NCBI GenBank assembly: GCA_025603075.1
Contig: MU626333.1
Location: forward strand, 29,239-93,238
DNA length: 64,000 bases
Direction of reading: 5' to 3'
DNA from: Neoconidiobolus thromboides FSU 785
Lineage: Eukaryota; Entomophthoromycota; Entomophthoromycetes; Entomophthorales; Neoconidiobolaceae
The notes under the pieces: model-generated
The model's database searches: none
What the model saw: only the letters and a program-made list of their open reading frames with translations
Told to the model about the DNA's origin: nothing
Made by a program: the position numbers and the translations under genes
Shown: piece by piece, positions 21,504 to 64,000 of the stretch
Numbering within the stretch: the stretch's first letter is position 1
Layout of the letters: the number at the start of each line of letters is the position of its first letter

Positions 21504-23331
21504 TTAATTTTCCATAAAGCTGGTAATTTTGACTGAAAAAGATTCATCACTATTTGATTTTGAGCTAATGGGTAACAAAGGCAACGAAGGTGGAGGAGAA
21601 TGATAGTTCAATTCTTCATCCCTACGGCAAAACAAAGCTGACCAATATTTAAGGTATCTGGTATCAGCAATAATACTTTTATTATTATCAATATCAGTTG
21701 AATAAATTGGATTAATGTATTGATCTTTATCCGACATGATTTTCGACCAAATCGAATACGTGCTATTAAATAAATTAGGTTGCTGTTTTAAGTCCTGTTC
21801 TCTATCAAATAAAAAGTTAGCAAATTGACAAGAATAAGTATGTTGATATAAATGTATCAAAAACTTTTCATTAAATTCAAACATGGTTGGATTCTGTGTC
21901 CAAAGTTGATACGTACAGTCTAAAAATTGATGAAAAATTGGGCTTGTTTCTTTATCCTGTTCCGGTTTAGCTGAAGCATATTGATAAAACTTATTTTGCA
22001 TATTGGAAAGCAAACTTGGGCTACTAGTATGATTCAATTGAATAGAAGAATTATCTACAAATGCTTTGCTTTTTGTCAAATGCCCACATCGACTACGAAA
22101 TTTATATCCAAAACTTATCCAGTCCTTTTCAATTAATATACAAAACCCTTTTATAGTGCGATAAAAGGGATCCAGGCATAGCGCAGAAAGTGAAGTGATT
22201 TGGGCTGTACGATCCCAGCCATCGGAACAATGTACAACAACGTGAGAATCTAATTCATCAACATGCTTTATTACTTGGTTAGTAGCGTCCATTATTGTTC
22301 GAATATGCTTAAGCCAATTGCTTTTGGTTAATTGTATTCTACTAATGACTCCTTTCCCATCTGCAATGCAAATAGCTTCATTTAATTTATTAAGTGATTC
22401 CCTTACTACATGTATATTTTCTATACCCATGAACTCTCTTTTACAGTTGGGATAAAAGTCCATATTCTCCGAACCTGCACCAATAGCTTGATTAGCCATA
22501 GCATTAACCCCAGGTCTTGCATCAACAATAAGGTTATCTTTTGAAGGTTTGGTTTCAAAAATAGCTTGAATTAATCTTTCATCTTGGTACGAGCGATTTT
22601 TTTGAATACCAAGTAGTGGCTGACTACATCTTGTAATAGAAGATCCATTTGGATGTAAATAAGTTAATACTGGAAGTCGACATTTACTTCGATATTTACA
22701 AGCATATTTTAAAACCGCATCACTTACTGATGTTGGGACTACTAAGGTGCTAGGATAAGTAGGGCTAAAATTATAACTAGAATTAATCGTTGTGAATCTC
22801 CAGCTATTGCTGTTTGTTTCTATTCCCATACGTCGGAACTCTTCCATAGGTTCGTAGATCTTCCAGCCCTGTTCACGTTTGAAGGTAAATGGGGTACGAG
22901 GCTCAAAATAAAACGCATAAACACTAGTAATAGCATCTGAAATTATAAAAATATAAAATCAATTTTTCAGAAAAATAGATTAGAGTTTACCTATGCAAGT
23001 TAACTTCTTAATGGAATCAAAAGCGTCTAATACAAGGCTTTGAGATTTAAAAGAAAGTACAAAAAAAAGAAAGTGATGGCATTTAATTTCTAAAGGATAT
23101 TTACCATCATCAGTTAAAGGTAGACATTGTACGGATGAAATCAAAGAATAAGTAACCCATTTTTCTTCATTTGGATGAGAGAAAATGAGATGGTGTGGGG
23201 TTAAATGTAAAGTTCCAATTAGGGTCTCTGAGTGCATTAAAAGACTTACATCATTTACCTTAATATATTTAATTGGAAGTTGTGATTTTCAAATGACTTA
23301 TAGTTACCTTGGTTACTTTTATATGTTCCAT
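21504..23331 (-). CDS. Myotubularin-family phosphoinositide 3-phosphatase, 3 exons
   Basis: Exons 23308-23331, 22991-23258 and 21504-22936 give 574 aa; the introns are 49 and 54 nt. The first exon encodes only MEHIKVTK, and exon 2 continues VNDVSLLMHSETLIGTLHL, restoring the start of the PH-GRAM domain (residues about 1-105). The catalytic signature HCSDGWDRT (residues 333-341, Cys334 and Arg340 of the CX5R loop) is intact, so an active enzyme is expected. RPGVNAMANQAIGAGSEN upstream is another family hallmark. It should dephosphorylate PI3P and PI(3,5)P2 on endosomal and vacuolar membranes, like yeast Ymr1. I prefer the upstream start at 23331 because an ATG at 23237 would cut off the first strand of the GRAM domain. 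No FYVE domain follows. Confidence 0.93.
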
Positions 23332-24225
23332 TATAAAATTAAATTTGCATATATTTGAATAAATAGTTGGCTTAATAATAACAACTTATTTTTATTTATT
23401 TTCCTTTGTCATTAACTAATTTTCAAGTGACAACTGTTGTTTTTATTGGCTTGTTATTGCATTTTGTTCTTTCATTGGATATTTTAGATTTAAGTTGAAG
23501 GGAAAATATTATTATAATTTGATGGTTAACAATAAATCAGGTATATTAAATTTAATATATATAATATAATATAAACTACAATACAAAGGTAGATTAAAGA
23601 TAAAATTATAATGAATCAATAATATATATATATAATATCTTAATAATAGAACGTCTTTAAAAAAGGAGTGAATATGGTCTTACTTAACAGCTTTTATTTT
23701 ATTTATTTGCTTATTAAAATAAAAAACATTTAAAATGAACACTTATTTAAACCTACATATATTTTAATATCAAATAAACTTTGCTGGGTTATTTATATAT
23801 CTAACTAATAAATGGATCATTGATACTAGACCAATAAATTATAAATAAATCAAAAATAAATTAAAAAGTAAAATATACGCATAATGCTTTTGAGTAGATG
23901 ATGAAGAAAGGAGACTGTGTTTTAAATTGTTAACAAATTTAATTAGTATTTTTTAACATTTCAATAGCTCAACTAAATCTTCAATTACACTGTTTCATTA
24001 TCCACCAAAAAATGCTTGATATAAAGGTAAATATCGAAATTAATAATAAAATGTTAATAAGTTAAGCCGGGTATTCTTTTACTCTCATAGCTAATTTACT
24101 GAGTTATATTTTAAAATAATAATAGTAATAGTAACAAATAGTATAAAAGGCTTGAGTTTTCTAGTAAACAAAATTATAAACAGTCAATACACACATAGTA
24201 ATTTCAAATTAATAATAGTAGAATA
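23332..24225. other. Intergenic stretch before the secreted-protein cluster
   Basis: Divergent interval between myotubularin and the first cluster gene; AT-rich, holds only the TATA box of the latter. Confidence 0.55.
24142..24150 (+). promoter_or_regulatory. TATA box, cluster gene 1
   Basis: TATAAAAGG 84 bp before the ATG. Confidence 0.65.
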
Positions 24226-24501
24226 ATGTTTAAATCCTTTTTACTCTTATTCTTATCCTTATATTTTGTTACTGGCTCCAAAATAATTAAAGCAGGTACT
24301 AAAATAGTTACAGAAGTAGCTAAAGACATGTCTCATCGTTATGTTGTTGGTAAAATGGAAGATCAAACACCAAAGCCAAATACGGATGCACCAAAATTTC
24401 AAATGCCAAAACCTACAAAGCTAGGTGTTGAATATTTTAATGAGTATCAAAAAAAGAGATTTGGAAGAAGTTGGATTAAAAAAATCGTTAAAAGCCTTTA
24501 A
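24226..24501 (+). CDS. Small secreted cationic protein, cluster gene 1
   Basis: A 91-aa intronless protein. Residues 1-17 (MFKSFLLLFLSLYFVTG) form a signal peptide. The mature part begins with an Ala/Lys/Gly segment followed by the family hallmark TEVAKDMSHRYVVGK. A Pro/Lys-rich variable middle (PKPNTDAPKFQMPKPTK) follows, then a basic tail, RFGRSWIKKIVKSL. No cysteines, so it is not a disulfide-knot protein. It is the leftmost member of a same-strand family of seven intact genes and two pseudogenes. I recognise no known family. The basic tail and helical N-segment suggest membrane or nucleic-acid contact, but this is only inference. Confidence 0.8.
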   Translation: MFKSFLLLFLSLYFVTGSKIIKAGTKIVTEVAKDMSHRYVVGKMEDQTPKPNTDAPKFQMPKPTKLGVEYFNEYQKKRFGRSWIKKIVKSL

Positions 24502-25592
24502 CTGAATAATAAATTGTTATTTTTATAAGATCCTTTATAAACTATATTACTATTATTCGATGTTTTATTTTATAAAGTCCTTTAAAAGTAATTTATATCT
24601 TATTATAAGTAGTTTTTAGATTAATAAAGCTAAACAATTATAATTTAATAGTCAAGGTAATCACTGTATAGTCAGTTTACTTAGAAGTTAATCACTATCT
24701 ATATCAATAACAACTACATGTGCATTTTATTATAACAGTAGGATAAGTTTGTAATAGATTTCCTTCTACCACAATTAAACAAACGTTTTGTTCTATTTTT
24801 ATTTAATAGACTAACTATTCTCAATGATTGTAAATTCGATTGTAGTTGATTTAACTTATTAAATATATTCAGATCTCTTATACCTAGCCCTATATATATA
24901 GTAGCTTAGTTTGTGAGTGGTATTGATTTGTTTTTTTCAGTGAAGAGTATCTTTATTTACACTTAGTAGTTAATATTGCAAGTATCAACCTTAATTCCAC
25001 AAAGAGTAGGCCTAAACAATCATTTAATTAATAAGTTACTATAACTAATGATTTTATTTTTTCTTGTAATTAATTTACTGAGTGCTTATCTATGTCAATT
25101 ATTCATTGTATGTTTTAATAAACAGCAAGTTACAAAAATGAATTGAAAGTAATAAAGTCATAGGCTGTAAGTAAAAACATAACCTCAATATTTTGGAATT
25201 AAATATCAAAAATCTTAAGATGGTGCTATAAAATGGAATAAATTTGACTATGAAATTAATTTAGGAATTAATATATTATTTAAAAATATGTGAGCAAGTT
25301 ATTAGTTAACAGTTCTTGATTTATTTTTTATTCATTAAAATAGAAGAAGTATTCAATAGAATTTTTATTTCAAACTTACTATTATTACATTTAATATTAG
25401 ATGAATCTAGCTACATCATCATTATCTTTAAATTATAAACAAGTTATCGTAATTAATTAATACACTAAAATACGAATTAGAAACAAATAAATAAATTTTT
25501 GAATCATAGTAATTTGGCACCCTATTATGGTTGCTACAGATATGTAAAAGTACTTTATATAAAACTATAAAGCGAAACTAATAACATAATTT

Positions 25593-25691
25593 GGAGATGT
25601 ATTTTTGTATTTGAGAATTTTACTAACAATTTTTCCACTCAAATAGTGCTTAAAAGATAGAAAAATAATGAAGCCAAAAAAAAACATCCTC
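25593..25691 (-). mobile_element. Miniature inverted-repeat element, copy 9
   Basis: Inverted copy from GGAGATG to CATCCTC with a perfect ATTT duplication (25589-25592, 25692-25695). Confidence 0.9.
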
Positions 25692-26027
25692 ATTTGGATA
25701 AATAAAGTTAATTATCCATATTATTTCATAGCTTATCTATTAAATTTATATTAAAAATAAAAATGGCTTAAATATAACAATATTCCAGTAAAGATATTAG
25801 CATCATGTATTAAATAACAATAATTGAATATAAAGTTTTAAAAATTCACTAAAAAATTGCCTTAAAAAGTAAATAAAAAACAAAAAAATATATCAATATT
25901 TTTAAAGTGAACTCGTGGTATTAAAATAAATATATTGATATTTGAAAATATGAATTCATGCTGATAAAAGCACCAATATTAATGCTTTAACAAAAAACTT
26001 TGTATTAATAAAAATAAAAATCAATAG

Positions 26028-26037
26028 TATAAAAGGG
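26028..26037 (+). promoter_or_regulatory. TATA box, cluster gene 2
   Basis: TATAAAAGGG 83 bp before the ATG. Further upstream (about 25911-25975) a GAACTCGTGGTATTAAA...TGAATTCAT block is shared with gene 3 (28505-28575). Confidence 0.65.
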
Positions 26038-26110
26038 ATACAATTTCAAGAAGACAAAAGCATTAAGCAATTAATATAAATACAATAGTCTAAGTAAAAA
26101 CAGCTGAATC

Positions 26111-26386
26111 ATGTTCAAATTCTTCTTATTCTTCCTCTTATCTTTATACTTTGTTACTGGTTCTGGGATACTCAGAGCAGGTGTTAAATTAGGCACGGAG
26201 GTAGCCAAGGATTTAGCTCATCGTTATGTTGTCGGTAAAGCGGAAGATCAAATACCAAAGCCAAAGACAAATGTACCAAAACTTCCAGTATATAAACCAA
26301 CAAAATTAGGTGTTGAGCTATTCAATAAGTATCATAATAAGAAGTTCGGAAAGAGATGGGTTAAAAAGATCGTCAATAGTCTTTAA
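26111..26386 (+). CDS. Small secreted cationic protein, cluster gene 2
   Basis: A 91-aa protein with signal peptide MFKFFLFFLLSLYFVTG. The mature region reads ILRAGVKLGTEVAKDLAHRY then VVGKAEDQIPKPKTNVPK, ending NKKFGKRWVKKIVNSL. It is closest to the gene at 34291. The Lys-Arg pair before WVKK could be a Kex2-type processing site that frees a short C-terminal peptide; the other paralogues have Arg-Ser or Ala-Arg-Ser at this place, so such processing would not be shared by all. Function unknown. Confidence 0.8.
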   Translation: MFKFFLFFLLSLYFVTGSGILRAGVKLGTEVAKDLAHRYVVGKAEDQIPKPKTNVPKLPVYKPTKLGVELFNKYHNKKFGKRWVKKIVNSL

Positions 26387-27260
26387 CTTAATAAAAATTT
26401 GATATTTTTGTTAGATTTGACTACATTTTATATTATTGCTATTGAATTCTAATTTTATTAAACGTTTATAAGTTCGACTTTTATCAAATGTAATTTTAAA
26501 GTTTTAGGATCAAAAAACCCCTTAACCTCGATGACCTAGAGTAGTTATTATGTGATGAGTTCGTTTATGAACTAGCCAAAAACTATGATGATGACTAATC
26601 ATTAATTACCTTTTAATATTACAGCGGAATCTGGTTTCCAGTAGATTGCTTAACATACAATCAGAAACAAATACTTTATGATCCGTTTATTATCTAACTA
26701 ACATCAGTCATTCCCGTTAACTACAGCTTTTAATTGAACTCAATCTGAGTTATTAAATACTTTTAGATATCTCATGACCAATCCTAGGATAACACAATAG
26801 TTTGAGTTTTAGGAAATACTGTTTTATTTTGTAAGCTCAAAGCTGCTTTGCACTGTGATATGTAATTAATGCTACTGATGATAAACCTGAGGTCTCATAA
26901 ATATTGGTGCAGAAACAACTATTCGCTTCAAATTTAGATTTTTCAAGAGGTTCTTATATCTAATGTATGTTAGCTCTTGACATGGTTTGTTTATTGAAGG
27001 TTTACATAAAAAACTTATTTAGTATTTTGATAAATGTTAGGTTATCGAGGCTGAATTGAAGACCATGAAATTATGGACTAGTACCAAAAATAAAACAAGC
27101 TTACTTTATTTCAAAATAGTATGATGGTAAAGAGGATTAAATTGTCAAATATAATAAATATAGTTTTGAAAGATACGTCGATTTTGACTTCATTACTTTA
27201 TTTCTCTTATGTTAAAATTTTAATATGACTATAAAACGGAATGATAAAAGTACAAAACGA

Positions 27261-27358
27261 GGGATATATCTTTTGTGTTTAAGAATTTTATCAAGAATTT
27301 TTTCACTTAAATAATGCTTAAAGGATCGAAAAAGTGATGAAGCCAAAAAAACGTCTCC
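27261..27358 (-). mobile_element. Miniature inverted-repeat element, copy 10
   Basis: Inverted, diverged copy from GGGATATATC to ACGTCTCC; core TTAAATAATGCTTAAAGGA visible. Flanks do not match clearly. Confidence 0.75.
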
Positions 27359-28315
27359 AAATGAACTTTTGTGAAAGAGACTTTTTTCAATAAAGTGATA
27401 TACCAAATAAGGTGTTTTAGGTTCACCTATTAAACTATTACATGACAAGCAATCCCATTAACTTTTATTAAAAGTGGCTTATTTCTTTAAAATGCAATAA
27501 ATGTATATATTAAATAACAAGCTTTTAAAACAGCCAACACATAATAATCTAAAGGCTCTGTAAACAAACTATAAAGTGTTGCTATTAAATCAGTATTGAA
27601 AAAATTACTGGATATATTTTATTTTAAAAATATTTAGAAAACTGCTATAAAAAAATAACATAAGGCATTTACAAATAAAGAAATAAAAATAAAATTTTAA
27701 ACTTAACTTTATAATTGAGCTATTGATTAAGTTTGTCAAGAGTATTATAAAAATTGAAACTGTTGTATTAGAATATCATATAAAGTAAAAAGATTCGAAG
27801 TTATACAGACATCTAGTATGTATACTTATTTAGTAAGTTGAGTTGTTTATATAGGATTGAAGGATTAACATATCTAAGTAATTCACCTCAATTGTCCCAA
27901 ATTATTATATGAAAACTCCCTTTTTTTCTACTTCCGCAACCTATCATGTCCGTTTGAGTATACAAAGGAACAAATTTAAATGAGTTCAATATAATTTCTT
28001 ATCGTCTTTGGATGGTTTATAGGAAACTGAAAGTCTTCCCGCAATCTAATAGTTCCTACAAACACCTTGCTTACCTTTATGGTATCTTATCTCGCTCTAA
28101 TTTACAAATAGGTAAAAACGCTTAAAAGTTATAAATTGACTGTTTTAAGATTATTAAATTAATTAAAAATATTAAAATCTGAATATGGAAGTGGCATTTT
28201 CGTTTTAATATTCAACTAAAGATTATTTTAAAATTTATTTCAAAAGAATAAACAAAATATTGAAGATAGAAATGACATTACTATAAATAACCTTTATAGA
28301 ATAATAGATTGAATA

Positions 28316-28357
28316 ATTTAATAAGAATGATTTAATAAGAATGATTTAATAAGAATA
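28316..28357. repeat. Three tandem copies of a 14-bp unit
   Basis: ATTTAATAAGAATG repeated three times (the last ends ATA). Lies about 310-355 bp upstream of cluster gene 3. Confidence 0.85.
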
Positions 28358-28591
28358 ATAAATAAATAAAAATAAACAAAACAAAATATTCAAACTAGTT
28401 TCGTAAATTAAGAACTATATACATTTATGATTAAAAAAGTAAACTGGATGATTACTATAAAAGTAAATAAATAAATAATAAAAAATAAATTAATATTTTT
28501 AAATGAACTCGTAGTATTAAAGATAAAAATAAAATTAATACTATTAATATTTTGAAAAATGAATTCATATCAATGTAGGGAAAGCAGATAG

Positions 28592-28600
28592 TATAAAAAG
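28592..28600 (+). promoter_or_regulatory. TATA box, cluster gene 3
   Basis: TATAAAAAG 79 bp before the first ATG, 82 bp before the second. Confidence 0.65.
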
Positions 28601-28670
28601 CATCCGATTCATAAGAAATAAAAGTATCAATCAATATAGTATATAATAACTGATAGCTAACATTCATAAA

Positions 28671-28985
28671 ATGATGATTAAATTTTACTTATTCTTCCTC
28701 TTATTCTTATACTTTGCTGCTTCTTCTAGAACATCTAAAGTGATTAAAGCAGCTGAAGGAGTAGGGAAAATAATTACAGATCAAGTTCATAGCTTTGGAA
28801 CTGAAAAGTTGACAGGGAATTCAAACCGAAGACCAAGCTCACAATCAAAGATAAAAGTTCAAGTAGAGCCAAAGTCAACCCCAGTTCTACCAAAAGCATC
28901 AAAATCTGAAAAAGATTTCGTTCATAAGCATGGTTTCATGAACAAGAGCAGAAGCTGGATCCAAAAGATTGTTAATAAGCTCTAA
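28671..28985 (+). CDS. Small secreted cationic protein, cluster gene 3 (divergent)
   Basis: A 104-aa, most divergent intact member. Signal peptide MMIKFYLFFLLFLYFAASS. The HRYVVGK hallmark is replaced by VHSFGTEKLTG, while the C-terminal motif RSWIQKIVNKL is kept, which together with the signal peptide, the promoter and the location identifies it as family. The middle is longer and rich in Ser, Lys and Pro. The second ATG (28674) aligns better with the MFKF start of paralogues and with the TATA spacing, so the true start may be there (103 aa). Confidence 0.75.
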   Translation: MMIKFYLFFLLFLYFAASSRTSKVIKAAEGVGKIITDQVHSFGTEKLTGNSNRRPSSQSKIKVQVEPKSTPVLPKASKSEKDFVHKHGFMNKSRSWIQKIVNKL

Positions 28986-29351
28986 TCTAATTTAATAAAA
29001 TTTTGATGCATTTAAGGGGTTGCTAATATTCGCTATTGTTTAAATATAAAATTACTTTTTGCAAGAAACTTCATATCAGTCTAATTTTGAAAAAAGAAGT
29101 TTAGATCCCTAGATTTAGATTGATAAATCAGTAGTCAAATTAATCACAACACAGAGGAATTTAATGAATTAAAAACTATGATGCCAGCTTAATTCAAAAT
29201 TGTATTATATAAAAGCAATAACTGTTCATCAATATATCTCTTACTATGATAATCAAACTTAATTATTTTATTTATGGTGCTTCATCAATCGATTTTGGTT
29301 ATCCTTATCTATTAATAGTCCTTTACTAAAAATTGATTTGAAACATTATAT

Positions 29352-29449
29352 GTAAGTGTTTTTTTCGGTTTCATTGTTTTTTCCATTTTTCAAGCGCTAT
29401 TTGAATAAAAGATTGCTAGTAAAATTCTTAAACAAAAGAATACATCCCT
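29352..29449 (+). mobile_element. Miniature inverted-repeat element, copy 11
   Basis: From GTAAGTG to CATCCCT with a perfect ATAT duplication (29348-29351, 29450-29453). Confidence 0.85.
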
Positions 29450-29812
29450 ATATATTACTTATTATGGCAGTTTATTGCAGTTCACAGCTAATTTATCAGC
29501 AAAATCCATCACATGATCAAATTATAAGTCTATAGTTGTTTGGTAGTAGAATTTTAATCAAGTTTTCAAGTACTTTGAAAAATTAAAAAAATCATTAATT
29601 AGAATATAACAATAATCAAATTATTTAAAAAATTCTAATGTTTATTAAGTTAAATAATATTAGGAATCTTCTCAATGCAATTTCTAATTTTCTTTTTTAT
29701 AGACTCATTATCATGTAGTGATTTTCAATAGTAAACTAATTCTAAATTGTGATACTTGCCTAATTGAAAAAATGCATTTGTTATTAAAGGAAAATAGACT
29801 CTTGCTACATCT

Positions 29813-29909
29813 GGGGATGTATTTTTATGTTTAGGAATTTTAGTGATAGTTTTTTCATTCAAATAGCACTTAAAAAATGGAAAAAGCGATGAGGCCAAAA
29901 AAACACCCC
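29813..29909 (-). mobile_element. Miniature inverted-repeat element, copy 12
   Basis: Inverted, well preserved: GGGGATGTATTTTTATG to AACACCCC, with a perfect ATCT duplication (29809-29812, 29910-29913). Confidence 0.92.
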
Positions 29910-31093
29910 ATCTCTTATTTTCACAATCAAGCGTTAGCATTTTATTTATACTATTCATATTATTTTTATCTAAGTGGCTTTAATTATTATCATTAATGTA
30001 ACAGTATTTTAGTCAAGTTGATCTTGGCTATTAACTACTTTTAGATCTTCCTTATCTACTTTTGCAGGTAATAGAATAGACTGAGTTATAGGTAACACTA
30101 GTTTAATTTTCAAGTAAACATAGCTTTCATTTACGATTTAACAATTTTCGTGTCAATAGTAATCTTAAAAGTCTATAAAGGATGTTGTACAAATAATTAT
30201 TTGATTTGAGTTTGAACTCTTGTAGTTATTATATCTCCTTTGTAGTTTATTTATCGATTATTTAAACAAGAATTTTGATTATTGAATTTATCATTAATTA
30301 ATAACTTACAGGAGTTACCTGGAAGTAATGGGTTCACAGCCAGCAATAAAAAGTAAAATCATAATATTCCAAAATAAAATAACAAAGCAAAAGGATTCAA
30401 TCATTATGATCAACGTTTGGTAAGCTCTATTTTATTATTTAAAAATTTAATCTTACCGAAAATTATTGACTTCAATTATGATTTTACTTTTTTGACTTCA
30501 AACTTCACTTTCTTTATTTGTCAACTTTTTACAATGACAAAAATGAACATTGTACAAATTGAATTTTGATAAAAAATAGAAATCATTATAATAAAATTAT
30601 ACATTAGCTAGAGAATTTGGCTTTGCCTTATAAAATGATTATATAAATAAGGCGGTTTTAATCAATACTTGCTTTATAAGTTATATAGCATTAGTCTAAT
30701 TTTTTTTGAATTTTTACTAACTTTAGTAACAAACAATTTTGCTATAAAAGATTATGTACAGATACTAATAGAGTAATAGTTGTTTTGTATAATTATCTTG
30801 TAATCGCCTTGAATTTCCTGTTATTATTTAAGAATTTTTATATTCCTATCTAGAGAGGAAAGCGTTTTATTTATATATAAGGAAAAAACCAAAAGAGGGT
30901 TTGTTGCTACATATACCACCCAAGATTTTAAACTGAACCAGGAAAAAGAAAAAGAAATAAGAAATAACATTAATAATTCTGAGGTACTAAGCATAGCCGC
31001 TTTACAACCCAAATACTATCTAGTAGCTGACACTTTGAATGCAGGGATCAAAAAGAATTGACTCGAATATTTTTTATCTTTAGAGGGTTTATA

Positions 31094-31181
31094 AGGTAGT
31101 TTTTTGTTTAGCTTTAATTGTAGCCTTTCCACTCAAATAGCGCTTAAAAACGCAAAAAGCAATGAAACCAAAAAAACGCCC
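31094..31181 (-). mobile_element. Miniature inverted-repeat element, copy 13
   Basis: Inverted, diverged; core CCACTCAAATAGCGCTTAA and end AAAACGCCC are clear. No clear duplication. Confidence 0.75.
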
Positions 31182-32124
31182 AATTAACAGAGAAAAGAGT
31201 AGGTGAGCCCTTTTTAAGTTAAAGCTTTCCGTCGTTTGATAGTCACTTTGATTGACAAGATTACTTTAGTCATGTTGTAATTCAGTTCTTTGAGATAGTA
31301 ATATATGATCTAAATGGCAGGACTAGCTATAGGTAGAAGAGCCGCTCTGATAACAAAAGGAAAGTGTCTTAAAAAAGGAGAACGAAAGCAAACATTCAAA
31401 CATACTAGATAATTGTTACTTGCCTATCTAATTATCTCATGAATATATATTCATGGTTTTATGAATGATTTTATTGGTTATATTGTAAGCACTTAGACTG
31501 CTGTTTTTAATTTTTTTGAATATTATTGTTATAAGTAGAAGCTTTCTATTTCAATAGTTTAATAAAAACTGAAATAGAAATAAAACAAAAACATGGATTT
31601 TGGTATTTATAAGTTTATAAAACGAGATAATATAAAGCAATTTATATTATTTCAAATGTTTTATATTATATAAATAAAACTTGATATTGTAAATGTTTTT
31701 TCCTGTCTCAATAGTTTGTTCATTTTATAAGCACTTAGAATTTGAATAGGTAAGAATAAAGAATATCATTATTTCCGAAGGTCATACTATTAATTCCGTA
31801 GGCAATTAATTAAATTTTATTTTTAAAGAAGCATAAATAATATAAATGATAACTTAAAAAATGTCTCGATTTCACATATTGAACACTTATTATCATTTAT
31901 TAATATTGAAAACGTAGGTTTTACAATTACTATAGAAAGTAAATGAAAAAGCAGTCATTGATGTTTATTGATAACTAATAAAACATTTCTCAATGATATA
32001 TTAAAACCTCTTATAAAATAATTGTATGATAATAAAGATACAAACAAAAAGCGTTCGATTCACAACAAAAATATGTAAATGATTATTATAATATTTAATG
32101 TATATAGTCAATACATACTGAAAC

Positions 32125-32397
32125 ATATTCAAATTTTACCTATTCTTCCTCTTATCCTTATGTTTTGGTACTACTTCTGCATTAATCAAAGCAAGTATTA
32201 AACCAAGCACTGAAGTATTTGAAGATTATCTTGTCATTCCACTATTGGTATAATAGAAAATTAGATATCAAATCAAAATAGTGGATACATCGTGTAAAGT
32301 GCTACTACCAAGAAAGTTAGATGTTGGGTTATTTAATAAGGCTCAAAAGGTTAGATTCAGGAAGAGATGGATTAAAAAGATTATCGATAGCTTTTAA
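32125..32397 (+). pseudogene. Secreted-family pseudogene 1
   Basis: Full-length relative of the 91-aa genes. The start codon is ATA instead of ATG (32125), and codons 43-44 are TAA TAG. Otherwise the 91-codon register is unbroken: a signal-peptide-like FKFYLFFLLSLCFGTTS, an altered middle, and a C-terminus RKRWIKKIIDSF ending in TAA at 32395-32397. The TATA box is also lost (the corresponding sequence reads GATACAAACAAAAAGCG). Recently enough broken that no frameshift has accumulated. Confidence 0.85.
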
Positions 32398-33022
32398 TCA
32401 ATAAAACCATTAAACTTTCAACACTTTTATTTGTATAGTTTAGATTATTAATTGTGTTTTAAAAAACTAAGTTTAATAAATTTTCGATTAGCATGACCAA
32501 AAAGAAACAAAAATTCATATTTCTTTAATAAGTAAACTTTGATGGCTTTCATTAACTAGTACTTTTCGATTAGATTGACTCGAGCTATTAAACACTTGTA
32601 AATCTCTCATTGCCAATCCTAAAGATAACATAATAAGTTGATTTGTAAGCGACATTCACTTGTATTGTAAGTGGGCTAATCTCATTGTGTTACGATCAAT
32701 AACTGACGTTATAGATACAACCTCAAGGCTTTTTAAAGAATAACATATAGAAATTGTTTAGCTCAACCAAATCCTTTAAAAAGCTTATTAAATGGATTTT
32801 TTTTAAAGAAATTAGCCTCAGGTGTTTCATTAACTAGGATAGAGATATAAATGCCAATGTCATGTAATTTAGAGACTATATCATTTAATGATACCATTCT
32901 GAAAGTGTAGGAGGTACAAGAAGAGAGTCCAAGCTTTTAGTATCCTTTTAATATTAAGAAAGATGGAATGTAAATTACTTGGACTATAATATGATTAACG
33001 CTTCTCATTAAAGGGAGAGAAG

Positions 33023-33487
33023 CGTGAAATATCGCTTTGTCAGCCCCATAGTTAATTATAACATAATAATCGCCTAAGTTGTCGTATTCTCGATTATAAA
33101 GACAATTAGTCCCATACTGTTATTCTGATTTGTTAAGAGAATTCCTATCTTCGTCTCAAAGAATATTCTCCCCTCGTTTTGATATTTATATTTATCGGAG
33201 TATAAAAGAGGTTCTAAAACATAATAGCTCGAGGCTTTTTAACTGAATTATTCCCTGATATCTCGAGCATTTAATAAAGCCGCTAAGTTTTCTTAATAGT
33301 ATTTTACGTAGATTTTTACATTAGTATTGTCTATTCTATTTATCTTATATAGCTTGTAACCTATTACGTGCTATTCTTCATAATCCAAGTCTATCTCAGT
33401 CACATAAACTAAGACCTTTCGACTTATAGTGTAGTTAACCCAGCAATAGCTGTTCTTGACTCCAAACACTGAGTACCAGATTTCACA
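33023..33487 (-). mobile_element. Solo LTR, copy B (inverted)
   Basis: About 465 bp, reverse complement of the LTR at 959-1419 and of the one at 63666. The + strand reads CGTGAAATATCGCTTTGTC at the left and GGTACCAGATTTCACA-like sequence (GAGTACCAGATTTCACA) at the right. The terminal TG is mutated to CG on one side. No adjacent internal region, so a solo LTR; no clear target duplication. Confidence 0.8.
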
Positions 33488-33656
33488 GAGGCATTTAATT
33501 CAAAGGAGGTATTTAAGAAGGCAGTTGGATAGATTGAAGAGAAGCAAAGCTTTTTATTTTTATATCTCATTACAAATTTGCTAAGTTAAAACCATATCAG
33601 GTGATAATATATTTTTTCTATTATATATATAAAGATATTAATGTAAAGGGGCTTAT

Positions 33657-33754
33657 AGAAGTGTTTTTTTTAATTTCATTACTTTTTCCATTTTTAAGCA
33701 CTATTTAAGCGGAAAATTTGTTAGTAAAATTCTTAAACACAAAAATACATCCCC
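33657..33754 (+). mobile_element. Miniature inverted-repeat element, copy 14
   Basis: AGAAGTG to CATCCCC, perfect TTAT duplication (33653-33656, 33755-33758). Confidence 0.88.
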
Positions 33755-34211
33755 TTATGTTATTTAAATATTAATTATAATAATAATAAAAATTAATACA
33801 TGAATATTTCTTTCTTTGTTTTGATATTATGACTATTTTTTAGACAGTTTAGGATTTGGAAATATTAAAACTAAAATATTAAATAAGAAACCATGTCCAT
33901 ATGCTATTATAAGAGTGAAATAACAGTAATGAAGGTGAAATAATAGTAAAAATAGGTGAATAAATTTATTGACTTAGTAGCTTATTTACCAAATTATATA
34001 GCCAGTGTGATTAAACAATACAAAAGTAAATAGCTTCAAAGAAATAAATCAGTTTCATAAATTAAGGGCCCATAGTTATTTATAATATTTTAAAGATAGA
34101 GTAGAGAATTACTATAAAAAGTAAATAAAAAATATTTCTTGGTAATTCTTTATATCGTGTTAATATTTCTAAACAGATAGCTTCCAACAATATGTTATTG
34201 GAAATAAAAAG

Positions 34212-34220
34212 TATAAAAAG
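34212..34220 (+). promoter_or_regulatory. TATA box, cluster gene 4
   Basis: TATAAAAAG 79 bp before the ATG, followed by GGTTCAATTCACA, which is shared with downstream paralogues; the further upstream motif TTACTATAAAAAGTAAATAA is at 34109-34128. Confidence 0.65.
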
Positions 34221-34290
34221 GGTTCAATTCACAGTAAAAAAAATATACAATTAACATAAATAATAGTTATTAATCAATACATCTTATAAC

Positions 34291-34566
34291 ATGTTCAAAT
34301 TCTACCTATTCTTCCTCTTATCTTTATACTTTGTTACTGGTTCCGGAATACTCAGAGCAGGCGTTAAATTAGGCACAGAAGTAGCTAAAGATTTAGCTCA
34401 TCGTTATGTTGTTGGTAAAATGGAGGATCAGGTGCCAAAAGCAAAAACAGATGTGCCAAAAGTTCCAACATATAATCCAACAAAGCAAAGTATTGAAAAC
34501 TTTGATAGGATTAAAAAAGGTTCTTTTGGGAAAAGATGGGTTAAAAAAATCACTAATAGATTTTAA
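34291..34566 (+). CDS. Small secreted cationic protein, cluster gene 4
   Basis: A 91-aa protein. Signal peptide MFKFYLFFLLSLYFVTG; the mature N-segment ILRAGVKLGTEVAKDLAHRY is identical to that of the gene at 26111, followed by VVGKMEDQVPKAKTDVPK. The middle diverges (TYNPTKQSIENFDRIKKG), and the tail FGKRWVKKITNRF keeps the KRWVKK motif. The sharp contrast between identical N-terminal and divergent middle segments is typical of this cluster. Function unknown. Confidence 0.8.
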   Translation: MFKFYLFFLLSLYFVTGSGILRAGVKLGTEVAKDLAHRYVVGKMEDQVPKAKTDVPKVPTYNPTKQSIENFDRIKKGSFGKRWVKKITNRF

Positions 34567-35633
34567 CACAATAAAAATTCGATATTTTTTATAAATATAT
34601 GACCATGTTTTATATTGTTTTATAATTGTTTTTTTATTACAAAATGCCTTAAATTACGATTTCACGGTACCAAAGTTGGTATTAAAACTTTCGATAATAT
34701 CTGTAAGCTTGATACCCTAGGATATTATTATCTGATGAGTCCGTCAGTAGATTAATAAGTTACAAAACTAGGTTAATTAAAAAAGTATTTTATATGATTA
34801 TAAAACCCGACCCCATATACATCCAACACTATAATAACAAAATGTAAATATTTTACTTATAACATTTTAGCTAATTGATATTGATTATTTTCATTGATTG
34901 ATAGCCTTGAAATTGAAAAAGATTGGGGTTAGAAAATATTTCTAAACCTCTTATGAATAATTATAAGGGATATAAAAAAACGATTTATAAACAATATAGA
35001 TAATTTATAAAGTAGGGATTGTTTTAAGTTATTACTAATCATTAGTGTTGTTAGTATTGACCTTAGTTTTTTTGAAGGCTAAGTTTAAACTGACTGTTTG
35101 ATCTAATTTGTATACTTTAAGGACTTGTCATAGCTAGTACATCTTTACTTCTTTCGATAGCCTGTTCGTCAATAGCTATATACAATTATTTATTGAGTAT
35201 TTTAATAAATAGCAACTTACAGAACTGAGATAAACGAGATGGAATTATGGACTGGAATTAAAAATATAAATAACGTACTGTTTAAAAATAAAACGAATAG
35301 GAGATAAATAGTTCTATTCAGTAAGAAAACAAATTTAGTTTATGATTATGGTTTTGGCTATTAACTTTAAAACTACTCTCGATATTTATCAACTTTTTAA
35401 TACAATGACAAACATGTATGTTACATGATATAAAATTGAATTTTGATAAATAACGGAGATTATTTAAAAAAGTAATACGCTAACTAAAAGATTTGATTTT
35501 ACCTTATAAAACAATTTTTAAGCAATTTGCTTTATCAATACTTACTTTTAAGTTGTTTGCATTAAATGTACCTTTTTTTAAAGTTTCACAAATTCTAGTA
35601 GTAACAATTTAATTTTTTTTAAATAAATGTATA

Positions 35634-35723
35634 GGGGTGTATTTTTGTATTCAAGAATTCTATTAACAATTTTTCCACTTAAATAGCGCTTAAAAAATGA
35701 AAAGGGTGAAGCCAAAACACCCC
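35634..35723 (-). mobile_element. Miniature inverted-repeat element, copy 15
   Basis: Inverted copy GGGGTGTATTTTTG to AAAACACCCC, with a small deletion in the GAAAAATAATGAA part. Flanks do not match. Confidence 0.82.
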
Positions 35724-36722
35724 TGCATATTAATAAAGGAATGAACATTTTAAATGACTACTTCATGGCTAACCTGAAATTCCTATCAATGCTGATAATT
35801 TTGCTTATAAAATCGATTAAAAATGTTATAAATATTTAAGTTATTGTGGTTAAAGTATTGGAATGCAATGAGATTCTGATCTTTTCTACTTTACCCTCAA
35901 TTTTTTCTATTAGTTTTTATTAGCAACTTCTCTATACCCTCACTACGTGCTGTTTCTTTCATTACATTTATAATATAGACGCCATAAATTGGGGTATAAA
36001 AATACTAATTTTGTCTAACTTAATTAGAAGCCGAGACAAGCAAATTTAAGTTGTTATCCGCTATCTATTCACTTTCTCCTAATAGTTTTCAGCCTCTCTC
36101 TTCCTCAAACTCAAAGCTTTCTTATTTTGATATTTATTTTATAAAGATCTTGCGAGTTCATCCTCTTTCAAGATGCTTTTAAAAAAATAAGAATGCCTTT
36201 TTTAAATATTTTGTCTATGTTAAGTAGCTTAAAATTCGAAACTACTATTAGTAAAGTTCCTAAATAAAAATAAAGTGATAAGCTGAATTATTAAATACAA
36301 AGAAATATAACAAATATATAAATGAATTAATGATTTTATTTATTTCCGAAAATTATCAATTAGGTTTTATATTAAAATAAGAAAAAAAAATTCTATTTTC
36401 ATGAATTAAGTACTCATAGTTATAAATGTTTAAGGTAAACTATACAATTTCTATAAAAGGTAAATTAGAAAATAATTCTCAATGGTGTATTAATATTTCT
36501 AGTATAATAGCCATTAATAGCACATCAATGTTCTCAATTAAATAATTCTTAATAATTAATTAATATTTGTTGCAAAATGATCCTTAACAATGTATTGAAA
36601 TAACTCTTAACGGTATATTGATAAAATTATAAAGTATGAAAAGCATCCAAATTAAAGAAAATAAAAGTATCAAACAATTTATATGATTTATATAACTAAT
36701 ACTAATTAGCATCAACCAAAAT

Positions 36723-36990
36723 ATGTTTGAAGTTTTTTTATTTTTCCTCTTATATATCTTTTTTGTCACTGGTTCCAGGCCACTTTAGAAATTAGGTAGG
36801 TTAGCGGTGGGAGTAGCTAAGAAGTACGCAATAGTTTAGCTCAAGGTAAATATACTTCTCAAATTCAATAATATAACACGTAGCTTTCAAAATCTCAAGC
36901 ACAGCATTTAACACTGGATAATCCTGCTTTTTTAAAAGGAATTAAGAAAAAAACTTAGGAAAAGATGAATTTAAAAAATTACTAATAGCA
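36723..36990 (+). pseudogene. Secreted-family pseudogene 2
   Basis: The ATG at 36723 opens MFEVFLFFLLYIFFVTGS, a clear signal peptide of the family, but TAG stops it at codon 22 (36786-36788). Traces of the mature part continue (KLGRLAVGVAKKYA, then another TAG), and a frameshifted tail near 36950-36985 recalls the C-terminal GKRWVKK region. The usual TATA is replaced by TATGAAAAG at 36635. More decayed than the pseudogene at 32125; the right boundary is approximate. Confidence 0.75.
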
Positions 36991-37382
36991 ACTAATGAAA
37001 ATTAGATATTCTTATTAATTCTAATTAGTCTCATAACTTATATATATATTTGGTTTTTTACTAGGTAGCTTTTTTTGATGATCAACTTTTAAATTATTTA
37101 CGTTAAAGGGCCTTATACTTAATAATTTAAAATAGTTGTTTGATAAACTACTAATAAATTTATACTGAGTTCTAATATTAGCCTAATAAAGTAACAATTT
37201 AGTTTAAAAGAAATATTGGTACAAGCACACTTTTGATCCCCATAAGCTAAGATAAAGTTATACTGATAAAACTCATGATAGTTAGACTTTGATAGTTTTC
37301 TTAAATAATAATTATTTGATTGAAATTGGTTTGGATTATCAGCTACTTTTAAATTCCTTATGCGTAATTCTATAAATGAAAT

Positions 37383-37480
37383 GAGAATGATTTTTTTGGC
37401 TTCATTACTTTTTCCATCTTTTAAGCGTTATTTGAACAGAAGAATTATTAGTAAAATTCTTAAACATAAAGATACTCCCC
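37383..37480 (+). mobile_element. Miniature inverted-repeat element, copy 16
   Basis: GAGAATG to ACTCCCC with a perfect AAAT duplication (37379-37382, 37481-37484). Confidence 0.87.
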
Positions 37481-38179
37481 AAATAATAGTTTGACTTCAA
37501 GAAATACTAGTGCATTTTGTAAACGTGGAGACTACTTAGAGTCACGATCAGTAAATGGCGTTAAACTCAGTACTTTTGAAGATTTACAAAAGGTAGTAAA
37601 TAAATAATCGCTTATTAGATGGCTTCACAAATAGCCTAGTAATCTACTTGGGAAAAAAGAAGGGTTTTTTTACAACAGGAATTTTTATTTTGAACTATTT
37701 AATCAAAAAAATTTTTAATTGAAATTTGTTTTATCTAAAAAGTAATAGATACTATGGCAAAAAGAATATTATGTTGTAATTACATACTCTTTTAATTTTA
37801 AACAATAAATAAATCACCATATTAAAGTTCAGAAAGTTGATAAAATTAAACAATATATTAAACTATAAGCCACAAGAAAATTAGATAGATAAAATCTTAA
37901 ATTTCATTATTTCCGAAGGTCATTTATTAAATCTATAACTAAAGTAATAAAAACAATGCAAAGATAAACATTTTAAAAAAAATGTCTTATCTTCCTGTAC
38001 CAAACATCTATAATCATTTGTTAGTATTAAAAAGGCAAATTTTACGATTACTATACAAAGTAAATAAAGAAGAAATCATTAATATTTATTAATGTTTTCA
38101 ATAAGATACTTCTTAACAGTATATTATACCTTTAATAAAACAATTCCATGCTATTAAAAAGAAAAAGAAAAAGAAAAAG

Positions 38180-38188
38180 TATAAAAAG
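38180..38188 (+). promoter_or_regulatory. TATA box, cluster gene 5
   Basis: TATAAAAAG 84 bp before the chosen ATG at 38264, directly after an AGAAAA repeat. Confidence 0.6.
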
Positions 38189-38263
38189 AACCTAATTAAC
38201 AACAAAAAAAATACTATATAATTGATATATACACAATCGTTCCAAACCAATCCATATAACAAT

Positions 38264-38590
38264 ATGTTTAAATTCTTTCTGTTGTTTCTCTTGTCTTTAT
38301 GCTTTGTTACTAGTGCATCACTAGCTAGAGTAGGTGTTAAATTAGGTACCGATATAGCCATGGATTTAGCTCATCGTTATGTGGTTGGTAAAGCAACTGA
38401 AAAAGCAAACCAAAAAATATCGGATTATAAACAAAGCTTACCTAAGCCAGCACAAACTTTACCAACAAGTGCTGCTGATATGGTTGTTAAAGTAAATCAA
38501 AATGCAGCAGCAGCTGGTGCTGCTCAGATTAATAAACTTTTTAAAAAAAAGGCAAGAAGTTGGATTAAAGAGATTGCTAATAGCATTTAA
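38264..38590 (+). CDS. Small secreted cationic protein, cluster gene 5
   Basis: A 108-aa protein from the ATG at 38264. An upstream in-frame ATG at 38222 would put 14 residues before the signal peptide and is rejected because paralogues and TATA spacing favour 38264. Signal peptide MFKFFLLFLLSLCFVTSA; the mature part starts SLARVGVKLGTDIAMDLAHR and YVVGKATEKANQKISDYKQS. The middle has an Ala-rich stretch (NQNAAAAGAAQINK), the tail is KKKARSWIKEIANSI. It forms a subfamily with the two genes at 39893 and 41198, sharing almost identical N-terminal halves. Confidence 0.8.
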   Translation: MFKFFLLFLLSLCFVTSASLARVGVKLGTDIAMDLAHRYVVGKATEKANQKISDYKQSLPKPAQTLPTSAADMVVKVNQNAAAAGAAQINKLFKKKARSWIKEIANSI

Positions 38591-39892
38591 ATCAATAAAA
38601 GGTTGATATTTCATCAATTTTAGTTATATTTTGTATTTCTTTAGTTAATTTTTATTATTATAAGAGACTAAAAGCTAATACATATGTTTGGGCCTATATT
38701 GCTTTATACTCGATATTTCACAGTAGTTACTACCTTAGAATGTACTGGTAAATATACATTGGGCTCTGTCAGCCCAACTAAAAACGTTTACTTTTTCAAA
38801 AGATAAAACCATACTATTGTAATTTTAATTACTATAAGTGAAAACGATTTATACTCAAAGATTTTAATAAACGGACTTCGGTACTTCTCATTGATAAAAT
38901 ATTTTCAATCTGAATTGACATGGACTGATAATTACCTTTAGATCTCTCATACCTAATTTTACTAATGATATAGCGGTTTGGCCTCTAATCAATACTAGTG
39001 TATTTTCTTAAACATGAGGATTAATTAAATTGTAATAAATAACAAAATTCAAAATTTTAAACTTTTATAAAAGATAGCAAATAAAGGATTGACTATCAGA
39101 TAACTTCATAAATAGCCTAATGGTTTTTCTAAAAAAAGGATAAAGTTCTTTACTGCAACAATAATTTTTATTTTTGAATTACTTATTAAAAGATCCTTTT
39201 TGATTAGAATTTGTTTTATTATGAAAATTAAAAAACATTTTCTAATTACTATTATAACAATGTACACCACCTAATTTCCAAAAAATATAGTTCTGTGAAA
39301 TTATAAAATCAAGTAAAAGCTACAAAACATAAAAGGAACAGTGAAATAAATAAAGTAGTGGAATTTATTATTTCGAAAAGTCATTTATTAAGCCCATTAC
39401 TGAAGTGATGAGAACAATATAATAGTATACTTAACTATGCTATTAAAGTGACTCTGCCATATATTAACCCTTCTTTACCATAAAGTCTATACTAAATTAA
39501 AATAAGTATTTTGGTTTTGGATTTTATTTAATTAGCTGTATTTAAGATAAAGTTGTGTCAAAGTAAGCTTTATTTTATCTAAGGTCACTTTAATAGCAAC
39601 TTTTAAAGTATTCTAGAAAAAATATATTAGCTTCAGAAATTGAGTAACCATAATTCTTGAAAATTAAAAAACTAAATTTTACAATTAATATAGAAAATAA
39701 ATCATAAAACAATTCATAATAGCATGTTGTTATGTTTAATAAATTGGTTCTTAATACTTATTAGTATCATTAATAAACTAGTTCCGTATTGTCTAAAATA
39801 GTGATAAGGGTATAAAAAGCGTTCAATTCACAATTAGAATATTACATAATTAGTATAATATAAAATACTTATCAGCTAGCCTATATAAAAAT
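38591..39892. other. Spacer between cluster genes 5 and 6
   Basis: AT-rich 1.3 kb; only the duplicated promoter region near the right end is recognisable. No miniature element. Confidence 0.5.
39811..39819 (+). promoter_or_regulatory. TATA box, cluster gene 6
   Basis: TATAAAAAG followed by CGTTCAATTCACAATTAG, 82 bp before the ATG; essentially identical to the promoter of cluster gene 7. Confidence 0.7.
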
Positions 39893-40219
39893 ATGTTTAA
39901 ATTCTTTCTGTTGTTTCTCTTGTCTTTATACTTTGTTACTAGTGCATCACTAGCTAGAGTAGGTGTTAAATTAGGTACCGATATAGCCATGGATTTAGCT
40001 CATCGTTATGTGGTTGGTAAAGCAACTGAAAAAGCAAACCAAAAAATATCGGATTATAAACAAAGCTTACCTAAGCCAGCACAAACTTTACCAACAAGTG
40101 CTGCTGATATGGTTGTTAAGATAAATCAAAATGCTATAGGAACTATTCCTGCTCCATTTAATAAGTTTACCAAAAAGAAGGCAAGAAGTTGGATTAAGAA
40201 GGTTATCAATAGTATTTAA
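39893..40219 (+). CDS. Small secreted cationic protein, cluster gene 6
   Basis: A 108-aa protein, nearly identical to cluster gene 5 through YKQSLPKPAQTLPTSAADMV, then diverging (NQNAIGTIPAPFNKFTKKK) into the tail ARSWIKKVINSI. The C-terminal part is instead nearly identical to cluster gene 7. It therefore looks like a mosaic of its two neighbours, consistent with unequal crossing-over or gene conversion. Signal peptide as in the paralogues; function unknown. Confidence 0.82.
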   Translation: MFKFFLLFLLSLYFVTSASLARVGVKLGTDIAMDLAHRYVVGKATEKANQKISDYKQSLPKPAQTLPTSAADMVVKINQNAIGTIPAPFNKFTKKKARSWIKKVINSI

Positions 40220-41197
40220 ATGAATAAAAATTTGACATTTTTATTAGTTTTAAACATATTTTTTATGTTTTTATTAATTTCTATTATATATTATTTTAAA
40301 AGCACATACTAATTTTCCAAATTAACATATTGAATAATAAATAACCCACAGGAGGAGGCTAAAAAGCTAATACAAATATTGGATAAAAATTTTTGACGAT
40401 GGGATAAAAAATTTTGTAGTAAATCTATTATACAAAGTATAATGTATAATTGTATCAAGTTTAAAATTTGTTAGATTACCTTTCTTTGAGATATAAAGAA
40501 AACAACATAAAATTTTAAGTTGAATTAAAGTAAAAGTAATAGTATATTATAATGAGTTCAGGATTACAATATATATAATTTTTTACACAACTTTATTGTA
40601 ATTTCACAAATGTAATACAATTCCAGTTTATAATCAATTGAATTAGTTCCTACATATAGTTAAAACTTCAAAGTATATTACATTGGGACAGTTTTTTGTT
40701 TTGAGCCAAAACATGACTGTTAATAAAGAATTTATTACTAGTAATATTTTCTTTCAACTAAATATTAAAAATGAACAATTTGATATAAAGCTATATATAT
40801 TATCTTTAATATATACAATAGGTTTGTGTAAAAAAATTGAGCCTATTCTCCCTTTATGCCCTTCATTATGAAAACTTTTTAACTTACGCCTCTAGCTTCA
40901 TAAATTAAGTAGACATGCTTGTTTATGAATATTAATAAGATAAACTCTACAATTACTGTAGAAAGTAAATAAATAAATAAATTTGTTCTTAATGATATAC
41001 TATTATGCTTAATGAATTAGTTCTTATTACACATTAAAGCTGTTAATAAATTAGTTTTTGATGCGTTAAAACTATTAATAAACTAGTTCCGTATTGTCTA
41101 AAATAGTGATAAGGGTATAAAAAGCGTTCAATCCACAATTAGAATATTACATAATCAGTATAATATAAAATACTTATCAGCTAGCCTATATAAAAAT
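40220..41197. other. Spacer between cluster genes 6 and 7
   Basis: AT-rich; the last 120 bp or so before 41198 duplicates the region before 39893. An open frame of 62 codons at 40683-40871 has no support. Confidence 0.5.
41116..41124 (+). promoter_or_regulatory. TATA box, cluster gene 7
   Basis: TATAAAAAG 82 bp before the ATG; upstream motif TTACTGTAGAAAGTAAATAA at 40953-40972. Confidence 0.7.
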
Positions 41198-41524
41198 ATG
41201 TTTAAATTCTTTCTGTTGTTTCTCTTGTCTTTATACTTTGTTATTAGTGCGTCACTAGCTAGAGTAGGTGTTAAATTAGGTACCGATATAGCCATGGATT
41301 TAGCTCATCGTTATGTGGTTGGTAAAGCAACTGAAAAAGCAAACCAAAAAATATCGGATTATAAACAAAGTTTAGCTAAAGCAACATCAAAACCTTTACT
41401 ACCAATTGGTGCTAGTGTAGCTATTGAAGTGAGTAGGAATGCAGGTGGTATCCCTGCTCCGTTTAATAAGTTTACCAAAAAGAAGGCAAGAAGTTGGATT
41501 AATAAGGTTATCAATAGTATTTAA
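41198..41524 (+). CDS. Small secreted cationic protein, cluster gene 7
   Basis: A 108-aa protein. Signal peptide MFKFFLLFLLSLYFVISA, then the same LARVGVKLGTDIAMDLAHRY as in the two genes to the left. The central segment is replaced (LAKATSKPLLPIGASVAI, EVSRNAGG), and the end is PAPFNKFTKKKARSWINK then VINSI. Rightmost family member; the next gene (43386) is unrelated. Function unknown. Confidence 0.82.
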   Translation: MFKFFLLFLLSLYFVISASLARVGVKLGTDIAMDLAHRYVVGKATEKANQKISDYKQSLAKATSKPLLPIGASVAIEVSRNAGGIPAPFNKFTKKKARSWINKVINSI

Positions 41525-63665: not shown

Positions 63666-64000
63666 TGTGAAATCTGGTACTCAGGGTTTGGAGTCAAGAA
63701 CAGCTATTTCTGGGTTGACTACACTATAAGTCGAAAGGTCTTAGTTTATGTGACTAAGATAGACTTGGATTATGAGGAATAGCACGTAATAGGTTACAAG
63801 CTATATAAGACAAATAGAATAGACAATACTAATATAAAATCTACGTAAAATACTATTAAGAAAACTTAGTGGCTTTATTAAATGTTCGAGATATCAGGGA
63901 ATAATTCAGTTAAAAAGCCTCGAACTACTATACTCTGTAAACTCTTTTATACTCCGATAAGTATAAATATCAAAACGAGGGGAGAATATTCTTTGAGACG
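63666..64000 (+). mobile_element. LTR, copy C, truncated by the window end
   Basis: Starts TGTGAAATCTGGTACTCA and follows the LTR at 959-1419 for the 335 bp visible. It could be a solo LTR or the 5' LTR of a complete element continuing beyond the window; the sequence here cannot tell. Confidence 0.8.

Follow-up and report, generated by a model that had tools for sequence, protein, structure and literature searches.

What kind of proteins are encoded by a row of seven small, similar genes in an insect-associated fungus, and how did the row arise? The question is raised by a 64-kb stretch of DNA (hereafter the window) from Neoconidiobolus thromboides FSU 785 (Entomophthorales), in which seven small basic proteins, all predicted to be secreted, are encoded in tandem. 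The window was analysed together with the genome assembly from which it comes (23,116,642 bases in 392 contigs) and with public collections of proteins and protein families. At the level of the DNA, comparison of the array copies shows local duplication, sequence exchange (by gene conversion or recombination) and decay.

A tandem family and the search for its relatives

The intact genes, named here by their first base and all on the plus strand, are 24226 (24226..24501), 26111 (26111..26386), 28671 (28671..28985), 34291 (34291..34566), 38264 (38264..38590), 39893 (39893..40219) and 41198 (41198..41524), and they encode, in that order, 91, 91, 104, 91, 108, 108 and 108 amino acids. A sequence-only reading of this DNA had placed seven intact open reading frames (ORFs) at these starts and taken them for one family; alignment bears this out, with 11 invariant positions, a tryptophan in the C-terminal tail among them. 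Three subgroups can be told apart: A (24226, 26111 and 34291), B (38264, 39893 and 41198) and C, which consists of the most diverged member, 28671. The basic, tryptophan-bearing tail that had been ascribed to every member is indeed present in 7/7, as is (by eye) a signal-peptide-like hydrophobic leader of 18–19 residues, and the DLAHRYVVGK-like core said to occur in most members is found in six and is missing from 28671. A length of 91–108 amino acids combined with such a leader throughout is what would be looked for in a species-restricted small secreted family, whose members are expected to have a signal peptide and fewer than approximately 150 amino acids.

Decayed copies accompany the intact ones. 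When the window was searched with a DNA profile of the family (E up to 10), nine places were recovered, all on the plus strand: the seven genes and the two pseudogenes previously proposed. Pseudogene 32125 (32045..32429; E 2.8e-40) has lost its start codon and carries two adjacent in-frame stops, with its tail still in frame, and pseudogene 36723 (36631..37022; E 5.6e-22) has a stop shortly past the signal peptide, several more stops and an altered promoter element. A further relic of a family 3' end, which was not among the profile matches, was found on the minus strand at 29571..29710 by BLAST with the seven gene stretches. Positions 29626–29710 match gene 39893 (74% over 85 bases, E 6.6e-10), a match to gene 41198 (68% over 141 bases, E 1.2e-6) extends the relic to 29571, and a tail-like reading with a stop at the matching place is retained. 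This relic accounted for four of the nine off-family rows, the other five being short (26–48 bases, E 1.6e-4 to 0.007). In a control with the reversed window, 9 of 13 rows (E 3.4e-7) came from one identical 25-base stretch that matched the mirrored positions of genes of the family itself, and the best remaining row had E 0.002. The earlier picture of many paralogues and decay is therefore extended by one relic, and the statement that all copies lie on the plus strand holds for the seven genes and two pseudogenes but not for the family as a whole, because this decayed fragment sits on the minus strand.

The description of the family as undescribed also withstood profile searches, since Pfam, NCBIfam, PDB and a protein database gave no relative beyond the locus. 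Within the genome, searches with 39893, 28671 and 24226 returned 8, 7 and 8 matches (E up to 10), all in the cluster. In Pfam, searched with all seven members up to E 10, three weak families appeared, each for a single member (best E 0.036); NCBIfam gave no match for any of the seven, and the best match of a PDB profile search had E 0.044. The protein database of 5.8 billion sequences, searched by a method that needs shared 5-residue words, yielded six matches with the whole-protein profile (among the 7986 candidates sharing most words), six with the mature profile and one with mature 28671, all from this locus. Matches to MANF (PDB, E 0.044), DUF3568 (E 0.036), Egg_lysin (E 0.1) and Coleoptericin (E 0.13) were set aside as chance; the last was obtained with 39893 only (1/7), at 12.9 bits against a curated cut-off of 25. 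Nine PHROGs matches (best E 0.033) were likewise taken as chance, and a bacterial or viral origin was rejected after pattern matches in viral (58) and bacterial or archaeal (22) contigs yielded no relative by tblastn. Among the titles and abstract openings listed in searches of mostly non-subscription literature, none described the family, and ‘K502DRAFT’, the prefix of the public gene models considered below, did not occur in any paper of that literature. The family has thus so far been seen only in N. thromboides, a restriction bounded by the proteomes in the database, whose coverage of other Entomophthorales was not checked. Species-specific genes are not rare in this fungus: compared with three other Entomophthorales, 16.3% of its genes fall in species-specific orthogroups, less than in any of the other three, in a study that also describes insect-associated early-diverging fungi as genetically poorly characterised (PMC10515909). 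The gene families reported there are, like the array, confined to a single one of the species compared; the array differs in being tight, in having a promoter element common to its genes and in showing signs of conversion.

One public gene model of the locus appears to fuse two genes of the family. The family profile retrieves two hypothetical proteins of N. thromboides FSU 785, K502DRAFT_349510 and K502DRAFT_349512. The former (P0001, 142 amino acids) consists of the first 73 residues of 24226 followed by residues 23–91 of 26111, joined across a supposed intron of 1,732 bp at 24444–26175 (GT at 24444–24445 and AG at 26174–26175, a placement that we read off the DNA), which swallows the tail and stop of 24226 and the promoter and leader of 26111. 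This model most likely fuses two separate genes in error, because 24226 and 26111 each have their own TATA-type element, leader and AATAAA. The start that K502DRAFT_349512 (P0005) adds to 34291 is doubtful; it lies ahead of that gene's TATA-type element.

Upstream elements, coding constraint and exchange between copies

Are the seven ORFs genes, and how have they been kept alike? The pattern RGTATAAAARG occurs seven times in the window, on both strands counted together, and one occurrence lies about 80 bp before the ATG of each intact gene, at 24140..24150, 26026..26036, 28590..28600, 34210..34220, 38178..38188, 39809..39819 and 41114..41124 (all on the plus strand), with TATAAAA starting at -79 to -84 in 7/7. 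The expected number in the window is 0.66, and none of 100 shuffles reached seven or more; this count is partly circular, because the pattern was written after the alignment had been seen, but no circularity attaches to the finding that all of its matches in the window belong to intact members. At the aligned place the TATA-type element has been lost in both pseudogenes, being absent from 32125 and altered in 36723. Other TATAAAA or TATAAAG strings are found at -113 in pseudogene 32125 and at -271 and -95 in pseudogene 36723, and similar stray strings also lie upstream of some intact genes.

A second element, ATTACTATANAAAGTAAATRA, is found on the plus strand approximately 180–250 bases upstream of 34291 (34108..34128), 38264 (38047..38067), 41198 (40952..40972) and pseudogene 32125 (31926..31946), with one mismatch each to one form. 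The copy before 39893 (39684..39704) has three mismatches, and that before 28671 (28451..28470) has six if read ungapped or, by interpretation, one base missing. Weak versions with four mismatches each precede 26111 (-255) and 36723 (-276), and the element was not found upstream of 24226, where the best site has seven mismatches. In 2000 random 300-base stretches taken elsewhere in the window no site had four or fewer mismatches, and at one mismatch or fewer the whole genome has seven sites, four of them in the cluster, compared with two for the reversed pattern; ATTACTATANAAAGTAAATRA was, however, chosen after alignment, and common descent accounts for part of its sharing. Downstream, AATAAA lies within 8 bases past the stop in six of the seven intact genes, 41198 having GATAAA. 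A conserved stem-loop in the 3' untranslated region seemed likely by eye and was rejected, as the folds differ among the seven genes (z-scores from -4.25 to +0.90).

Codon constraint was assessed with a Fisher test of synonymous against nonsynonymous differences in 8 of the 21 pairs of genes. Over the whole ORF six of the eight were significant at p<0.05: 24226–26111 (1.9e-7), 26111–34291 (1.5e-5), 26111–39893 (0.0022), 28671–26111 (0.0036), 28671–39893 (0.014) and 34291–39893 (0.016). For the mature parts alone the result was significant in three of the eight (1.4e-5, 2.3e-5 and 0.0063), with p 0.15 for 28671–39893, and for the linker and tail alone also in three (0.00045, 0.0019 and 0.03). 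Together with the TATA-type element and the AATAAA signals, the whole-ORF constraint makes the seven ORFs look like functional genes. It could still be asked whether the tandem array is decaying, or selfish, and now without a role, its ORFs having stayed open by chance and conversion, as might be suggested by the two pseudogenes and the third relic, by the dispersed repeats between the genes and by the recent B–B pairs, in which whole-ORF constraint is not significant (p 0.1 and 0.17). The constraint in the six other pairs tested speaks against such an array, as does a TATA-type element retained in every intact gene and in neither pseudogene, and we regard it as very unlikely.

The exchange of sequence between copies was followed by profiling identity in 60-base bins for four pairs. 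Between 38264 and 39893 identity is 57–77% in the 240 bases upstream, rises to 97–100% from the ATG to +240 and falls to 72–75% beyond; between 39893 and 41198 it is 97–100% from -120 to +180, then 68%, then 78–88%. The three 3'-most genes are therefore nearly identical in their first half, and this likeness breaks off sharply in linkers that have diverged, the mark of gene conversion. No such sharp block was seen in the profiles of 26111–34291, which is highest (92–93%) in the first 120 coding bases, and 24226–26111. In the pair 38264–39893 there are no synonymous differences at approximately 31 sites in the first part, compared with 9 at approximately 39 sites in the rest (p 0.0036). Because selection on the protein does not hold synonymous sites, the leader and N-terminal helix are kept alike by gene conversion or recombination.

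Properties and possible roles of the proteins

Once the leader is removed by inference, the mature parts comprise 73–90 residues, with an isoelectric point of 10.05–10.54, a net charge of +9 to +12 and 3–5 prolines, which agrees with their earlier description as cationic. They had also been called cysteine-free, and this is true of all seven mature proteins; 38264 has one cysteine, which lies within its signal peptide. The charge is unevenly distributed: the last 22 residues carry +5 to +7 and the first 28 carry +1 or +2. When hydrophobic periodicity at 95–105 degrees was averaged over the three subgroups (the 28671 stretch being entered without its gap), the value for the last 16 residues was matched by 0.15% of 2000 shuffles and that for the N-terminal 25 residues by 1.85%. 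AlphaFold models built from 7-sequence alignments place helices at 2–29 and 47–72 in 26111 (mean predicted local distance difference test score, pLDDT, 57.1; predicted template modelling score, pTM, 0.21) and at 3–34, 53–63 and 71–89 in 39893 (pLDDT 54.9, pTM 0.19), with no tertiary fold in either. The models suggest, at low confidence, a helix–linker–helix architecture, plausible at the level of secondary structure, and the periodicity is consistent with amphipathic helices.

It is tempting to read these features as those of secreted, cationic, membrane-active (antimicrobial or cytolytic) proteins, and this is the role that we tentatively prefer, as a real possibility that falls somewhat short of being probable. 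In such a scheme the leader would be cleaved and the charged mature protein would leave the cell with hardly any fixed fold in solution, its N-terminal amphipathic helix being joined by a variable linker to a basic, tryptophan-bearing helix at the C-terminus; at an anionic membrane the helices would fold onto the surface, with the basic tail driving binding, and the membrane would be disturbed. Paralogues that share their N-terminal half and differ in their linker could provide a wider target range or a higher dose, and the targets would be competing microbes or insect-host cells, between which we do not choose. An environment- or host-facing role, as had been supposed from the DNA, is plausible. 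The larger proposal, that a single entomophthoralean species has to itself a new class of secreted, membrane-active fungal proteins arranged as a modular array in which conversion would keep the leader and N-terminal helix identical, linkers would diversify and one promoter element would drive all copies, seems to us doubtful.

Several observations weigh against membrane activity. The N-terminal helix is nearly neutral and has conserved acidic residues, unlike classic antimicrobial helices; periodicity peaks at 85–90 degrees, near the helical value of 100 but below it, although in the subgroup B tail the signal at 95 nearly equals the peak; and when the proteins are taken one at a time, the best 18-residue hydrophobic moment exceeds that of shuffles at the 5% level in just 2/7. 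The moment of the last 13 residues beats shuffles in 5/7, the members being paralogues and not independent tests. Both AlphaFold models are of low confidence, subgroup B lacks any KR or RR site at which a tail peptide could be freed, and with the leader excluded both A–B pairs tested for codon constraint fall short of significance (p 0.065 and 0.094).

The leader itself allows another view, in which it would stay uncleaved as a signal anchor, giving a small membrane-anchored protein with its basic part towards the lumen or the outside. The leader is very hydrophobic, and its cleavage is predicted; by eye, however, the hydrophobic stretch of approximately 14 residues is rather short to anchor a protein in a membrane, and the small residues (G, S, A) after it are those expected of a cleavage site, and we consider anchoring highly improbable.

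High net charge and the lack of disulphides and of a predicted fold would equally suit a coating or adhesive, that is, structural proteins facing the fungus itself and binding its own wall, conidial mucus or cuticle surfaces, with the array serving to raise the dose. The shared TATA-type element would suit strong expression, and conversion that keeps the halves alike would suit dosage. By eye, however, the seven sequences show no repeats, glycosylphosphatidylinositol-like C-terminus or long Ser/Thr-rich stretch; moreover, an invariant tryptophan in a basic amphipathic tail exceeds the needs of a charge-only coat, and the linkers diverge, whereas selection for dose by itself would keep them uniform. 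We regard a structural or adhesive function as possible and rather doubtful.

Comparison with known systems helps to place the preferred membrane-active proteins. Hydrophobins, cerato-platanins and defensins are cysteine-rich fungal secreted proteins, a class to which mature proteins with no cysteine do not belong. Insect cecropins are similar in having a leader, two helices with a flexible hinge, no cysteine, a cationic character and a gene-family organization; the family here differs in its long linker and in carrying a basic, tryptophan-bearing helix at the C-terminus. Pfam holds profiles for both cecropins and Cyt toxins, and neither is one of the three families that the seven members matched up to E 10. 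KR or RR sites are absent from 38264, 39893 and 41198 and occur once in each of the other four, at the same place only in 26111 and 34291; because they are missing from subgroup B, a tail peptide released by Kex2 was rejected for the family. Candidalysin, the Candida albicans peptide cut by Kex2 after KR sites of the longer precursor Ece1, is likewise fungal, secreted and amphipathic, and its membrane action is demonstrated (PMC5784256), whilst that of the present family is proposed. Here, in contrast, each gene makes one short chain, three of seven lack KR and RR and the other four share no single site, and a Kex2-processed repeat protein was set aside, as no conserved KR or RR sites flank peptide cores.

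Might the proteins instead be effectors, secreted in the insect, binding specific host molecules and evolving in an arms race? N. thromboides is also a saprotroph, which counts against this reading, as does the lack of a folded binding surface in the predicted models. Restriction to one species, tandem arrangement, birth and death of copies and a faster-changing linker would fit effectors; so would the rates of nonsynonymous (dN) and synonymous (dS) change in the linker and tail of two of the 21 pairs, 34291 with 38264 and 34291 with 41198, where dN slightly exceeds dS (0.90/0.82 and 0.83/0.76), although dN is below dS in the other 19. Host-facing use is possible because, according to two reports, other Conidiobolus species make molecules (CytCo and coronatins) that are toxic to insect hemocytes (PMC11203964; PMC12387763); the two texts disagree about the nature of coronatins, which are either proteins or non-ribosomal peptides. 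These toxins come from the same fungal order and act on insect cells; the array proteins differ in showing no Pfam toxin domain. On balance we think host-directed effectors unlikely.

Surroundings and significance of the array

The array lies between a gene for a myotubularin-like phosphatase with a GRAM domain (21507–23237, minus strand) and one for a neurofibromin-type RasGAP of 2480 amino acids in a single open frame (47511–54953, plus strand). The claim that no other gene lies between its members stands for ORFs of at least 100 amino acids, tRNAs and Rfam families, though genes of short exons could have escaped notice; the interval is not empty, however, as it holds 8 of the 21 window copies of one dispersed repeat and one copy of a longer one. 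The first is a non-coding element of approximately 105 bp that resembles a miniature inverted-repeat transposable element, with inverted ends GGGGATG...CATCCCC and 21 matches in the 64 kb, 20 of them long (for example at 46162–46256 (+), 25592–25688 (-) and 33661–33754 (+)). Across the 23.1-Mb genome a first look gave 3072 candidates, of which 40 were scored, and some copies stand in adjacent pairs. In 20 copies the three flanking bases agree in 12 and four bases in 8, compared with 67 of 380 mismatched left–right pairs for three bases; a 3–4-bp target duplication is likely and unproven, because the repeat border was chosen for best agreement. The longer repeat lies at 33024–33487, 63666–64000 and 959–1418. 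With 336 of its bases, 534 first-look candidates were obtained; 40 were scored and yielded 41 matches, with the query itself counted, of which 40 are at 91–100% identity; because of this identity among the candidates scored, the repeat has probably been active recently. Elsewhere in the window, two ORFs without a Pfam match at E 0.001 were noted: one of 275 amino acids (60422–61249, minus strand) with many hydrophobic stretches, resembling a seven-helix receptor by eye, and one encoding a Thr/Ser/Pro-rich protein of 374 amino acids (5651–6775, plus strand) that has PTYTKPT repeats and what looks by eye to be a leader, similar to a cell-wall protein.

The cluster brings together, compactly and in a form that can be tested, cationic and probably secreted proteins which, if they prove to be membrane-active, would constitute a new peptide family. 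The array is also a clear small case of the birth, conversion and decay of orphan genes, in which loss of the promoter element accompanies decay of the coding sequence, and this value stands even if the proteins are not membrane-active.

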